Shown here piece by piece: positions 1 through 15,141 of a DNA stretch of 16,772 nt; the stretch's first letter is position 1, and every line of letters begins with the position of its first letter. The stretch spans positions 1 to 16,772 of the forward strand of contig PXEK01000169.1 of assembly GCA_003564735.1 (NCBI GenBank). Direction: 5' to 3'. The notes beneath the pieces were generated by a model that saw nothing but the letters and a program-made list of their open reading frames with translations, was not told the DNA's origin and ran no database searches. Source of the DNA: Cryomorphaceae bacterium (GTDB lineage: Bacteria; Bacteroidota; Bacteroidia; Flavobacteriales_G; Salibacteraceae). A program made the position numbers and the translations under genes.

Positions 1-962
1 CGGTGAAGCAACTCCTGTGATTTGTAATAGTCTTTTATTAGAGTTACAGAGTCCTGCATATATGCTAAATCATCGGTATCCAAACGGTGCAAATGAGGAT
101 AGTTATAGAATACTTTTGTGGCATCTACTCCCATAGGGCTGTCGAGATATGCCGGTATTGACGGAATTCGTTTTTCGCGTTTTAGACGACTTATAAAGTA
201 AATGAGCTCTTGGGCACGTTCAACAGCGAAGGAGGGAATAATCAATGTACCGCCCGCATCATGCGTTTCATTAATTACGCGAGCCAAATCATCTAAAGGG
301 TCTACATCGGGGTGGTTCTTGCTACCGTAAGTGGATTCGAGTATAAGAACATCGGCATGTTTAAACTTTTTTGGCGGATAAAGGACATGCGAATCAAAAC
401 GACCCAAGTCTCCCGAAAAAATAATTGTTTTCCCGTACGCCTCCACCTCAACAATTGCCGCTCCCAATATATGTCCCGCATTATGGAACTTGAATTTGAA
501 TTCATCTCCTATGATTACCGCAGACTGATAATCTACACTGTGGAATAAGGGGGTTGTTTGTTCCACATCCGCAAGTGTATAAAGTGCTGTAGCCGGGTTA
601 TGCTTGGAGTAACCTTCACGATTGGCTCTCTCCGCCTCTTCCTCTTGTATTTTGGCACTATCTTTCAGTATTATCGATGCCAATTCAATAGTGGGTTGAG
701 TGGCGTGTATGGGCCCGGCGAAACCACCCTTAACCAATAAAGGCAACCTTCCGCAATGATCTAAATGCGCGTGGGTAAGAATGACCTCATCTATTTCGGC
801 GGGGTTAAAAGGAAACTCGCGCCGGTTCAACAAACGAAGTGCCTTTAGACCTTGAAACATACCGCAATCCACCAATACCTTTTTATCACCGCACTCAAGC
901 AAAATACATGAGCCGGTGACTGTTTCGGCTCCCCCGCAAAATTTGATACTACATAAACTCAT
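1..962 (-). CDS. MBL-fold beta-CASP family hydrolase (partial, C-terminus off window)
   Basis: This is the N-terminal 320 residues of a metallo-beta-lactamase-fold protein of the RNA-processing (beta-CASP/CPSF-like) branch; the reading frame is open to the window edge, so the C-terminus is missing. Visible signatures are the family opening GAETVTGSC (11-19), the metal motif HAHLDHCG (64-71), the third-motif His in GHILG (H164), SGDLGR with D185, and beta-CASP motif A around E209 (LEST), followed by IPSFAVERAQE (242-252). Known members are ribonucleases or exonucleases of RNA. The true substrate here cannot be read from sequence. The ATG at 962 fits because conserved family sequence begins within ten residues. 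The gene diverges from mscS and has a perfect TATATTTG -7 element only 5 nt before the ATG. Confidence 0.9.
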   Translation of the reverse strand, partial: MSLCSIKFCGGAETVTGSCILLECGDKKVLVDCGMFQGLKALRLLNRREFPFNPAEIDEVILTHAHLDHCGRLPLLVKGGFAGPIHATQPTIELASIILKDSAKIQEEEAERANREGYSKHNPATALYTLADVEQTTPLFHSVDYQSAVIIGDEFKFKFHNAGHILGAAIVEVEAYGKTIIFSGDLGRFDSHVLYPPKKFKHADVLILESTYGSKNHPDVDPLDDLARVINETHDAGGTLIIPSFAVERAQELIYFISRLKREKRIPSIPAYLDSPMGVDATKVFYNYPHLHRLDTDDLAYMQDSVTLIKDYYKSQELLH

Positions 963-11189: not shown

Positions 11190-11648
11190 ATGACAACTTT
11201 AGACAAAGGAGATAAAGCTCCTCATTTTGAGAGTACCGATCAAAACGGTAACACGGTATCATTAAACGACTTCAAAGGGAAAAAAGTGATTCTGTATTTT
11301 TACCCTAAGGATATGACTCCGGGTTGCACCAAAGAAGCGTGCAACCTGCGCGATCACAACAGTGAACTGAAAGAAAAGGGATTTGAAATTGTGGGCGTAT
11401 CTGCCGATGACGAGAAAAAGCACGCCAAATTTGCGGAGAAGTACGATTTAAACTTTCCCCTTTTGGCCGATACTGAAAAAGAAGTGATTCAAGCTTACGG
11501 CGTTTGGGGTCCCAAAACATTTATGGGTAAAACGCGTGACGGTATTCACCGTACTACCTTTGTGATTGACGAACACGGTGTTATTGAAAACGTCATCAAA
11601 AAAGTAAAAACCAAAGAGCACGCCGAGCAAATTTTAGAGCATTACTAA
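11190..11648 (+). CDS. bcp: Thioredoxin-dependent thiol peroxidase (Bcp/PrxQ type)
   Basis: This 152-residue cytosolic peroxiredoxin reduces hydrogen peroxide and organic hydroperoxides with electrons from thioredoxin. The PrxQ/Bcp signature YPKDMTPGCTKEACNLRD is present, with peroxidatic C46 and resolving C51 five residues later, as in E. coli Bcp. GVSADDEKKHAKFAEKYDLNFPLLAD and the late GIHRTTFVIDEHG segments agree with the family. Length is typical (about 150-156). The open frame extends back to 11124, but the family sequence starts at MTTLDKGDKAP and the -7 element lies between, so 11190 is preferred. Confidence 0.94.
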   Translation: MTTLDKGDKAPHFESTDQNGNTVSLNDFKGKKVILYFYPKDMTPGCTKEACNLRDHNSELKEKGFEIVGVSADDEKKHAKFAEKYDLNFPLLADTEKEVIQAYGVWGPKTFMGKTRDGIHRTTFVIDEHGVIENVIKKVKTKEHAEQILEHY

Positions 11649-11653
11649 AATAA

Positions 11654-11669
11654 ATTTACCTACGTAAAT
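11654..11669. repeat. Inverted repeat upstream of recA
   Basis: ATTTAC (11654-11659) and GTAAAT (11664-11669) are perfect 6-bp arms around CTAC. The repeat starts 6 nt after the peroxiredoxin stop and lies 57-72 nt before the recA ATG, upstream of the -7-like element. No T run follows, so it is more like an operator than a terminator. Confidence 0.4.
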
Positions 11670-11688
11670 AGATTATGTTCGGGGGATT

Positions 11689-11696
11689 CACCTTTG
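11689..11696 (+). promoter_or_regulatory. Imperfect -7 promoter element (CACCTTTG) for recA
   Basis: CACCTTTG differs from TAnnTTTG only in the first base and lies 29 nt before the recA ATG. It is the best promoter candidate in the 77-nt spacer. Confidence 0.4.
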
Positions 11697-11725
11697 CAAC
11701 CAATTAATAACAAAAACACTGAAAC

Positions 11726-12760
11726 ATGGCAAAAGATATAGCAAAAGAAAAACTTAAAGCCTTGCAAATGACAATGGATCGTATGGAAAAAACATACGGT
11801 AAAGGCTCGGTAATGAAATTGGGAGACCAAGTAATTGATGATGTAGAAGCCATTCCTACCGGCTCACTAACGCTGGATTTAGCTTTGGGAGTCGGGGGGT
11901 TCCCGCGCGGACGCATTGTAGAAATTTACGGCCCTGAGTCATCAGGTAAAACCACCGTTGCCATTCATGCCATTGCAGAAGTTCAAAAACAAGGCGGTAT
12001 TGCGGCCTTTATTGATGCCGAGCACGCCTTTGACCGCACCTATGCGGAGGCACTGGGCGTGGACACCGAAAACCTCTTGATTTCACAACCCGACCATGGC
12101 GAACAAGCCTTAGAAATAACCGAAAATTTAATTCGGTCCGGCGCCATTGACCTCATTGTTATTGACTCGGTAGCCGCGCTTACGCCTAAAGCCGAAATTG
12201 AAGGCGAAATGGGTGATTCAAAAATGGGACTTCAAGCGAGGTTGATGTCACAGGCCTTGCGAAAACTCACCGGAACGGTAAGCCGCACACAATGTACGGC
12301 TATATTTATCAATCAACTTCGAGAGAAAATAGGTGTGATGTTTGGAAATCCCGAAACCACTACGGGCGGTAATGCACTCAAGTTTTATTCATCTGTGCGA
12401 CTCGACATTCGCCGTTCAGGACAGTTAAAGTCGGGAGATGAAGTGTTGGGTAACACCACAAAGGTGAAGGTGATTAAAAATAAGGTGGCACCACCGTTTA
12501 AAAAAGCTCAATTCGATATCATGTATGGTAAAGGAATCTCCAAAGAGGGTGAGATTATTGATATGGGAGTTGAAGTGAACGTGATTAAAAAGAGCGGCTC
12601 TTGGTTCTCATACGGCGATACTAAATTAGGACAAGGCCGTGATGCGGTGAAACAACTATTGGAGGAAAACCCCGACTTGATGGAAGAGCTCGAAAACAAA
12701 ATCAAAGAGGCACTCTCCCCCGAGCCCAAAGAGGCTGAACCCAAAAAAGAAGAAGCGTAA
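11726..12760 (+). CDS. recA: DNA recombinase RecA
   Basis: This 344-residue ATP-dependent recombinase forms filaments on single-stranded DNA, drives strand exchange and activates the SOS coprotease reaction where LexA exists. It has Walker A GPESSGKT (69-76), the catalytic Glu in DAEH (E99), Walker B LIVIDS (143-148), the L1-region [20 protein letters not shown] and the L2-region [17 protein letters not shown]. The C-terminal tail is acidic with Lys/Pro ([12 protein letters not shown]), as usual. The segment QPDHGEQ has His where E. coli has Thr. The start follows a -7-like element and an inverted repeat. No lexA or recX is adjacent. Confidence 0.98.
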
Positions 12761-12771
12761 AACCTTTTGAG

Positions 12772-12801
12772 TTGACAAACAACTCTTAAATATTACTTTT
12801 G
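12772..12801 (+). promoter_or_regulatory. Full Bacteroidota promoter TTG-N19-TACTTTTG after recA
   Basis: TTG (12772-12774, within TTGACA) is followed after exactly 19 nt by TACTTTTG (12794-12801). This is the best promoter match in the window and the only one with both elements at consensus spacing. Transcription would start near 12806-12808, directly in front of a 12-bp hairpin. Confidence 0.75.
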
Positions 12802-12805
12802 CACT

Positions 12806-12938
12806 AATCAATCAGGCTGCGTTTTGCAGCCTGATTGCTTTAAAACCCAACGGTGTACTACGGGAAACCCTATTGGTGAAAACTGCTTTATGTTTTAAGA
12901 GAATCTAAAACTTTTTCCCGGTGAAAGTGCCGTTTTTT
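12806..12938 (+). ncRNA. Candidate structured small RNA or leader between recA and the TPR gene
   Basis: From the predicted start near 12806 the sequence folds into successive helices. H1 is a perfect 12-bp hairpin (12809-12820 with 12826-12837, loop GTTTT). H2 is TA(C)GGG-AAA-CCCTA (12859-12872) inside a CCAA/TTGG closing helix (12847-12850 with 12873-12876). H3 is an 8-bp stem with one bulged A and a GAA loop (12892-12911). H4 is CGGTG/TGCCG (12919-12932, two G-U pairs), followed by TTTTTT (12933-12938). The last resembles an intrinsic terminator and would end a transcript of about 130 nt. No open frame is evident. It could instead be the 5' leader of the TPR gene at 12981. I do not recognise it as a known RNA family. 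Confidence 0.4.
12809..12840 (+). terminator. 12-bp perfect hairpin after recA
   Basis: CAATCAGGCTGC and GCAGCCTGATTG are perfect inverted arms with a GTTTT loop. It could terminate recA, but only CTTT follows, a poor U tract, and it lies downstream of a separate promoter. Its role is therefore ambiguous: terminator, or the 5' helix of the candidate RNA. Confidence 0.5.
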
Positions 12939-12980
12939 AGTTACAAATGACATGTAAACCGCAAACAACATAAATAAATT

Positions 12981-14015
12981 ATGAGAGTCGTATATTTTCT
13001 TCTTTTTCTCACCGTGGGCATTTCCGCTTGCGATAACGAATCAAGTACAGCCAAATCAGCCGCTAAGGATAATTCCACCAATGAAGATAACAATGAACGT
13101 TTTGATTCGCTTGATTATTTCGATGAACAAATTCGAAAAAACCCGAAAGACATTGACCTGTATTTTGCTAAAGCCAAGCATTTAGCGGCCAGGCTCAATT
13201 ACAATGACGCCATAAGCGCTTTGGATAAAGGAGTTACGATAGATTCTGCGAACGCTGAACTGTACGCCTTCCGCTCTGATTTACATTACAAAATGAAGCA
13301 AATTGAGAAATCCATGTCAGATGTTGAAACTGCTTTAGATTTAGACGAAACCAACATACGTGCCAACAGGAGAGCCGCTTGGATTTATTATATACTGCAA
13401 GATTACGAGAATACTTTCAAGTATGTAAATAAAGTTTTAGCTGAAGATGAAAATGACGCAGAAAGTTATTTGATTAAAGGCATGGCTTACAAGGAACAGG
13501 AAAAACTCAATTTGTCCATTTCCTCATTTCGCACGGCGGTTGAGCAAGACAACGACTATTACGATGCTTGGATTCAGTTGGGGTTATTGCACGGTTTGGC
13601 GGAGCATGAGCACACGCCGTTTTACTATGATAATGCCATACGCGTTGATTCTACTAAGTATGAAGCTCATTACAACAAGGCATATTACCTGCAAGAAAGT
13701 TTGGGAGAGTACCGTGAGGCTATAAAAAGTTATGATGCAATACTGCGCCACAATCCCAATTTTTACAACGCCTACTTCAATAAGGGATATATTTATTTGG
13801 AGTATTTGGATGTTTATGACAGTGCCCAAATGATGTTTACCCGCGTGACTGAAATCAACCCCTCGAGTTACAAGTCATATTTGCACAGAGGTATCGCCTT
13901 TGAACGACAAGGAGATTTACAAAGAGCAATTGAAGATATTAATAAGGCTCTTAAAATGAAGCCGGATTATGATGCGGCGGCTCTTGCAAAAAGTAGGGTT
14001 GCCGGCCAACTTTAG
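12981..14015 (+). CDS. TPR-repeat lipoprotein
   Basis: This 344-residue lipoprotein has a signal peptide ending in lipobox ISAC with C17, followed by an acidic Ser/Asn-rich linker (about 18-45). The rest is a series of about eight TPR-like 34-residue repeats (about 48-340). Clear examples are NYNDAISALDKGVTIDS, GEYREAIKSYDAILRHNPN and GDLQRAIEDINKALKMKPD. TPRs mediate protein-protein contacts, so it is probably a scaffold or assembly factor at the membrane; no specific partner is shown. Asp follows the lipid Cys (CDNE), so sorting is uncertain: in Bacteroidota acidic residues after the Cys can favour surface export. It starts 42 nt after the T6 run and has no closer -7 element, so it may depend on the promoter at 12772. 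Confidence 0.88.
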   Translation: MRVVYFLLFLTVGISACDNESSTAKSAAKDNSTNEDNNERFDSLDYFDEQIRKNPKDIDLYFAKAKHLAARLNYNDAISALDKGVTIDSANAELYAFRSDLHYKMKQIEKSMSDVETALDLDETNIRANRRAAWIYYILQDYENTFKYVNKVLAEDENDAESYLIKGMAYKEQEKLNLSISSFRTAVEQDNDYYDAWIQLGLLHGLAEHEHTPFYYDNAIRVDSTKYEAHYNKAYYLQESLGEYREAIKSYDAILRHNPNFYNAYFNKGYIYLEYLDVYDSAQMMFTRVTEINPSSYKSYLHRGIAFERQGDLQRAIEDINKALKMKPDYDAAALAKSRVAGQL

Positions 14016-14028
14016 ATTGTTTCTAAAA

Positions 14029-15141
14029 TTAGGTAACGTCAAACGAAGAAATAAACCAAGGGTTATTTTCAAGTTGCGTTTCCTGCTCCTTAGACAGGTT
14101 CAGGCTATTCACTACTACCGCATTGGGTGACGGTTTATAGAGTGTTTTGATCCACCCCAATTCACGAGATTGCAGCAGCATTTTATAGTAGGGTGATTCG
14201 GTATCAAACCACATGAGGGCAAGTTTGAGACGGAATTTCCACAGAAGAGACTCAAACAAATCGATTAAAACGCGTTCTTTACCCGGGGCATAATACAGAT
14301 GGTCGAAACTGAGAAACCGAAGGTTTTTTACGTCTAAGATTTTTTTGGCCATCCCGGTAGACTCAAGTACATGAACTACGTTATTAAATACTTTACTTCC
14401 TGTATTTTCAATGTGAAACATACAATCATTTACCTGGCATGCGGCTATAATTTCACCGGAATCGCTTTTCACGGTAAAAAAATTATCATGATGGAATAAG
14501 TAATGAAATTGCAGCGCATTGTGATTGGAGTAATGCTTTTTCAATAATTGCTCAATACCCTGTTTTTCCTTTTCTAAAACCCTGCTGAACTCAACTTTTT
14601 TTCGCGGCTTTAACCTTGTAAACGGTAAGGTTTGAAAAAGCCGAATGATTTTAAACTCGAAGCCCAAGGCATGATGCAGACTTCTCATGTTGTCGGGTTC
14701 GATATAAGCAAAATGCAAAGCGGGATGATTATGTAATTCGCCATATCCCACACCTTGTGCCGTAGGGTGATTGGCCATAATTTTACTCACCATTTTTTTA
14801 ACAATGCTATTTCCTTTTGTTTCTCTATTTTGATTTTCCGAAGTTTTATAGTCACTTCGAAAGGCGAAATAACGCACATAGTAGGCATTGCACTTACCAA
14901 AGGTCATTAGAGTTTCATACCCTCCGAAAGTAAGATTTGCTATGATGCGGTTTTTGCGCGAAATCCAAAGGTGGTATGGGTGATGCAGATGGGCAAGCCT
15001 GTCATCTACTCTACCGTGGGTATATTTCAGTCCATTAGTCCCCAGCACGGTATCTTTTATGAGTGTGGGGAGACCTTCGGGTACGCACTCCGTAGTGATT
15101 TTTATTTGTATTGAAGCTCTATCAAAAAGCGTTTTTTCCAT
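14029..15141 (-). CDS. GNAT-like acyltransferase family protein
   Basis: This 370-residue cytosolic protein has a GNAT-type acetyl-CoA-binding signature in its first half: FAYIEPDNMRSLHHALGFE (144-162) matches the usual Asn...Ser...Leu...LGF end of the GNAT core. The preceding TKGNSIVKKMVSKIMANHP (108-126) would be the pantetheine-binding helix region. The second half (about 180-370) contains SGEIIAACQVND and a FLSFDHLYYAPG run, which could be a second degenerate GNAT fold. The substrate is unknown. It follows purS after 67 nt in the same direction with no T-run terminator between, so it may be the last gene of the pssA-purS unit. It converges on the TPR gene with only 13 nt between stops. 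Confidence 0.65.
   Translation of the reverse strand: MEKTLFDRASIQIKITTECVPEGLPTLIKDTVLGTNGLKYTHGRVDDRLAHLHHPYHLWISRKNRIIANLTFGGYETLMTFGKCNAYYVRYFAFRSDYKTSENQNRETKGNSIVKKMVSKIMANHPTAQGVGYGELHNHPALHFAYIEPDNMRSLHHALGFEFKIIRLFQTLPFTRLKPRKKVEFSRVLEKEKQGIEQLLKKHYSNHNALQFHYLFHHDNFFTVKSDSGEIIAACQVNDCMFHIENTGSKVFNNVVHVLESTGMAKKILDVKNLRFLSFDHLYYAPGKERVLIDLFESLLWKFRLKLALMWFDTESPYYKMLLQSRELGWIKTLYKPSPNAVVVNSLNLSKEQETQLENNPWFISSFDVT

Follow-up and report, generated by a model that had tools for sequence, protein, structure and literature searches.

The 220 bp (12761-12980) that separate recA from a TPR lipoprotein gene in the DNA studied here quite probably represent a junction between these two genes, in which a promoter for the TPR gene would be followed by an inherited recA terminator hairpin, a decayed T-tract, and additional sequence peculiar to this lineage. 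The window (the whole 16,772-nt stretch that was analysed) is a contig of an incomplete genome, G000, which is 83% complete, and both genes lie on its + strand. No ORF of at least 60 aa overlaps the 12761-12980 spacer, in agreement with the preliminary description of this DNA, according to which no coding frame could explain the element. The features discussed below are the following:

11726 to 12760, + strand: recA coding sequence, 344 aa (Pfam RecA, E 8.2e-142), 95% identical to the recA of G002
12772 to 12774, + strand: TTG element of the -33 type, within GAGTTGACA (12769-12777), which is identical in G002
12794 to 12801, + strand: TACTTTTG, a TAnnTTTG (-7) box located 19 nt after the TTG, with equal spacing in G002; box present in 25 of 56 spacers
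12806, + strand: predicted transcription start, with the last G of the box at -5 (position taken from the accessible text of PMC9723704)
12809 to 12837, + strand: 12-bp hairpin with a loop of 5, for which orthology with the intrinsic terminator hairpin of recA is the best reading
12838 to 12960 (ends approximate), + strand: lineage-specific extra leader, absent from G002 and not structured beyond chance
12919 to 12938, + strand: weak hairpin (12919-12932) plus T6 (12933-12938), at chance level
12981 to 14015, + strand: TPR lipoprotein gene, 344 aa, with a lipoprotein-like N-terminus and Cys17, judged by eye

Past the TPR gene, on the - strand, positions 14029-15141 hold a gene for a predicted 370-aa protein with no Pfam or NCBIfam match at E 0.001.

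For comparison, recA was found in 57 of 60 genomes, G000 included, and the sequence following its stop codon was read in 56 of them, with G057 left out and an additional, weaker recA-like match of G004 disregarded. In all 33 family genomes examined in this way, and in 17 of the remaining 23, recA is followed by a TPR homologue. The genus itself was sampled through three genomes, namely G000, G001 (Salibacter halophilus), and G002, and the organism of the window can accordingly be called a Salibacter-like flavobacterium.

The TTG and the box 19 nt downstream of it, at 12772-12801, are present just as first described, and they match in sequence the sigma-A promoters of Bacteroidota, in which a TAnnTTTG -7 box is accompanied by an upstream TTG/TTTG element. 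The exact box and the 19-nt distance are also kept in G002, and the only feature that sets this site apart from such promoters is its position before the terminator of the preceding gene. Because the box was mapped at -12 to -5 in Flavobacterium psychrophilum, according to the accessible text of PMC9723704, we infer a start at 12806, which agrees with the position initially predicted. The site had been put forward as the best promoter in the window, and it does exist and match that of G002; its pattern, however, is not more frequent in the window than expected, as TTG-17..21-TAnnTTTG occurs 2 times against a shuffle mean of 2.29 (sd 1.61, 100 shuffles) and TAnnTTTG alone occurs 20 times against 19.6. 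With the pattern itself at chance in the window, support for a promoter comes from the relatives. A perfect 6-bp inverted repeat, GAGTTG-ACAAA-CAACTC, spans the TTG at 12769-12785, and G002 keeps only its outer GAG...CTC.

The hairpin that follows, which begins 48 nt past the recA stop codon, stands well apart from chance. Its perfect stem (12809-12820/12826-12837) folds at -21.3 kcal/mol (z -6.37), with none of 200 shuffles equally good. For loops of 3-10 the window holds no longer perfect stem, and stems of at least 12 bp average 0.05 per shuffled window (20 shuffles). The earlier report of a 12-bp perfect hairpin about 3 nt from the predicted start was therefore accurate (12809 against 12806). 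A stable G+C-rich hairpin at the 3' end of recA is what an intrinsic terminator would be expected to provide, and such hairpins recur after recA, in that a hairpin-plus-T site was found by script in 26 of 36 spacers (3 of the 26 inside the next gene), while several of the 10 spacers where the script gave none hold, by eye, a hairpin with a longer loop. The T-tract of the window reads only CTTTAAAA, or TTGCTTTA after a shorter stem, compared to T8 in G002. In short, the element resembles an intrinsic (Rho-independent) recA terminator in having a strong G+C hairpin right after recA, with T8 in G002 and with counterparts in the family, and it departs from one in its degraded T-tract and in the promoter-like site lying upstream of it.

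G002 is the only genome close enough to align, and the conservation reported here rests on this one pair. Its spacer measures 99 bp and reads TTG-19-TAATTTTG, ACAGGCTGCC-TTTT-GGCGGCCTGT, T8, and then the ATG of the TPR gene; it carries GAGTTGACA as well as a 10-bp hairpin that shares the CAGGCTGC core with that of the window, and its promoter-like site, as in the window, has the form TTG-19-TAnTTTTG. All 9 consensus promoter positions are identical between the two genomes, and 8 of the 19 linker bases agree (counted by eye, ungapped). Because G002 has the same core followed by T8, the most plausible reading of the window hairpin is that it is orthologous to the intrinsic terminator of recA. 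When 10 stem pairs were aligned by hand (MAFFT had put the loop-length difference in the wrong arm), 7 were unchanged, one was swapped on both sides (T-A to A-T), one had changed on one side (T-A to T-G), and one was lost in G002. The compensatory change for which the preliminary description had called is hence seen in a single pair by hand alignment, but not in the formal pair count, which detected no covariation in the MAFFT alignment of G000 and G002 with 70% of cells paired; we regard the stem changes as weak covariation, coming from two sequences only. As regards synteny, also proposed as a check, the promoter-like site and the hairpin lie after recA and before the TPR gene in G002, but neither the exact box nor the window hairpin occurs in the recA-TPR spacer of S. 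halophilus, a member of the same genus. The latter spacer (L053:2565-2718) contains a MITE-like repeat, about 155 nt long and bounded by the inverted ends GGGAGTGTATCAAAA ... TTTTGATACACTCCC; that genome has a second copy of it, 74% identical, at G001:C1:407700-407857, and a fragment measuring about 50 nt on C6.

Across the wider set of genomes, 25 of the 56 post-recA spacers contain TAnnTTTG within their first 110 nt, whereas the other 29 orders of its letters have a median of 4 spacers and reach at most 8. Genomes of one genus are not independent, and 10 of the 25 box-bearing ones belong to a single genus (g10). When counted by genus over the same distance, the box appears in 10 of 34 (letter-permuted motifs: median 4, maximum 6), and, when only the first 52 nt are considered, in 12 of 56 spacers from 8 genera (permuted motifs: median 1, maximum 4). 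Among 38 spacers re-read to 110 nt, 23 had one exact box, none had two, and 15 had none. One of the 25 boxes, that of G035, seemingly lies inside the TPR gene, and G052 has no obvious terminator. Two layouts were seen. In 13 genomes the box comes after the recA terminator, a few bases before the TPR start codon (terminators assigned partly by eye), while in 10 of the 33 family genomes, representing 6 of 14 genera, it precedes or abuts the hairpin, as listed here:

Box before or abutting the hairpin: G000, G002, G004, G007, G009, G012, G019, G023, G025, G027

Four g11 genomes that carry the upstream box also have a near-box (TATTTTG or TATTTTTT) close to the ATG, and the upstream box may thus not be the sole promoter there. 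The simplest reading of these data is that the box would serve as promoter for the TPR gene, its place with respect to the recA terminator differing between genomes. That the box recurs ahead of the recA hairpin in six genera is a modest and seemingly undescribed observation, made of elements that are all known; a literature search, with subscription journals mostly outside of it, yielded among the matches listed no title on the recA-TPR junction.

Under the reading that we favor, 12772-12801 would act as a sigma-A-type promoter of the TPR lipoprotein gene, and the hairpin would be the recA intrinsic terminator, inherited from the common ancestor with G002. On recA transcripts the hairpin would mark the 3' end. 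Because the promoter lies upstream of the recA terminator, the hairpin would also be contained in the TPR message, with TPR transcripts starting at about 12806, carrying the hairpin from +4, and running through a 175-nt leader; the same start rule applied to G002 places its hairpin from about +8 in a leader of 56 nt. In the window genome the T-tract would have decayed to the present one, with about 120 nt of lineage-specific sequence after it, so that termination at the hairpin is probably partial.

A stronger form of this junction reading, which we entertain only tentatively and whose confidence overlaps with that given to the junction reading, is that of a promoter-proximal attenuator of the GraL type, where most transcripts from the TPR promoter would stop at the hairpin or at T6 and leave a short stable RNA, and the remainder would become TPR mRNA. 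In the E. coli greA leader, as described in the accessible text of PMC6829880, a promoter is followed at once by an intrinsic terminator within the leader of the downstream gene, and about two thirds of the transcripts end as RNAs of 37-59 nt. Judged by sequence, the layout here is similar, in that a promoter-like site stands directly before a terminator-like hairpin in the predicted leader of the TPR gene, with the hairpin at about +4 in the window or +8 in G002, and with T8 in the latter. In greA, by contrast, the hairpin starts after 19 nt, and nothing pointing to a sequence relation or to a GreA-like feedback was noticed. Partial termination at the hairpin could in principle yield a GraL-like RNA of about 40 nt. 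On the other hand, the T-tract is poor in the window (CTTTAAAA), the T6 hairpin is weak, and the predicted start of G007 and G009 lies within the 5' arm, which leaves a much weaker fold, so that the layout is not uniformly attenuator-like. If an attenuator is present, the first hairpin is more likely to be responsible than the T6 hairpin.

The relation between start and hairpin was evaluated by folding 8 of the 10 genomes with the box before or abutting the hairpin, leaving out G004 and G019. For the above-mentioned G007, -17.2 kcal/mol becomes -8.0 once the fold begins at the predicted start, and for G009 -17.8 becomes -9.6. The predicted start also lies inside the arm in G012, G023, G025, and G027, where the drop is only 0.9 to 3.7. 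The hairpin of G000 is left intact, and the drop of 3.6 seen in G002 comes from pairs outside its hairpin. Such differing positions imply no single mechanism for all the genomes with this layout. A general rule placing boxes before terminators was also considered and set aside, as boxes at a gap of -8 to +12 before the hairpin were not clearly enriched (6 were counted, while the 30 letter orders have a median of 3 and reach at most 9) around 362 of 367 predicted terminators in about 1.19 Mb from four relatives, 5 having no full 100-nt flank and a 10-kb overlap of L197 having been removed. In the same four-relative set no box enrichment was seen downstream of terminators either, which indicates that this test has limited power.

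It could also be argued that the promoter-like site is fortuitous, and that recA and the TPR gene are co-transcribed, with partial termination at the hairpin. The chance frequency of the promoter pattern in the window would fit such a scenario, as would the TPR genes that abut or nearly abut recA in G006, G008, and G010; the identity of promoter positions and spacing in G002 and the over-representation of the box in post-recA spacers argue against it, and we consider it unlikely.

With regard to the remainder of the leader, the approximately 120 nt beyond the hairpin are missing from G002, and no convincing copy was identified either in the genome of origin (best other match, E 0.285) or by BLAST in 59 relatives (best E 0.003, over 28 nt). 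The stretch 12838-12980 folds no better than shuffled sequence (z +0.71; 152 of 200 shuffles at least as good), and neither does 12905-12940, which holds the T6 hairpin (-4.1 kcal/mol, z -0.36; matched or surpassed by 61 of 200 shuffles). Terminator-like sites in 11500-14200 number 5, against 3.1 (sd 1.7) in shuffles. The z of -3.74 obtained for 12803-12940 as a whole stems mainly from the first hairpin, because the remaining stretch folds at chance. The two further helices and the G/C hairpin with T6 that the preliminary description had reported consequently do not rise above background, and the T6 hairpin is too weak to be credited with the control of read-through once suggested for it, even though the broader alternative offered at that time, a TPR leader with its own promoter, holds in outline, given the promoter positions in G002 and the enrichment of the box. 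Rfam returned no match at gathering score, with 6S, Flavo-1, and others among the families covered, in the window or in 16 loci that included the window's own; at a permissive threshold there were four matches far below the cut-offs, the best being RsaOG (17.1 bits against 50, E 2.9). Structured 5' regions, Flavo-1 among them, are described for flavobacteria in the accessible text of PMC9723704, and the window, which comes from the same bacterial order, would also have a long leader, but differs from them in giving no Rfam match at gathering score and in a body not structured beyond chance. A dedicated trans-acting sRNA gene of about 130 nt (12806-12938), as initially proposed, does find the order of promoter, hairpin, and hairpin with T6 in the sequence, but is very improbable, as its body is missing in the nearest relative, G002, folds no better than shuffles, and has neither a convincing copy elsewhere nor an Rfam match, so that the conserved body and strong terminator of its own that would mark an intergenic sRNA gene are not seen.

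Other observations concern the extra sequence itself. A mobile insertion was considered as its possible source; the genome holds it only once, and no terminal repeats were convincing. The BLAST search had matched it in G005 (E 0.003 for that one genome, 60 searched), which suggested a shared motif around GTGAAAACTGCTTTAT (12876-12891), which was dropped as unsupported rather than disproved; the G005 sequence (L002:1263-1286, GTGAAAACTGCTTAATCTTTTAAG) resembles window positions 12876-12899, perhaps by chance, and a pattern built from both copies matched only those two in 60 genomes, while its reversed control had 6 matches. For another pattern, spanning 12865-12883, the 60 genomes held 69 matches, compared with 38 for its reversed control. 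Of two loci inspected, one match straddles a start codon and one falls within a long reading frame. Part of the pattern reads as common codons, and the excess may therefore reflect codon usage. Also within the extra leader, 12853-12879 could be read as an 8-codon frame (GTG TAC TAC GGG AAA CCC TAT TGG TGA) with three Tyr codons and one Trp codon, which is probably there by chance.

Taken as the gene junction that we favor, this interval illustrates how a promoter, a hairpin, and a T-run can mimic an sRNA gene while being a compact boundary between two genes. A further possibility, which we find doubtful, is that the recA terminator in this family may have a double role, ending the recA mRNA and at the same time attenuating the TPR gene with release of a short hairpin RNA. 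A promoter placed just before the terminator would, in some genera, give the TPR gene a built-in attenuator. In other genera, represented by G007 and G009, where the start falls inside the 5' arm, the terminator would be effective on transcripts from recA and crippled in those of the TPR gene, acting as a one-way stop for polymerase arriving from recA. If this were true, it would offer a simple example, open to testing, of one terminator acting differently on two incoming transcripts, located beside recA, in a little-studied group of flavobacteria.
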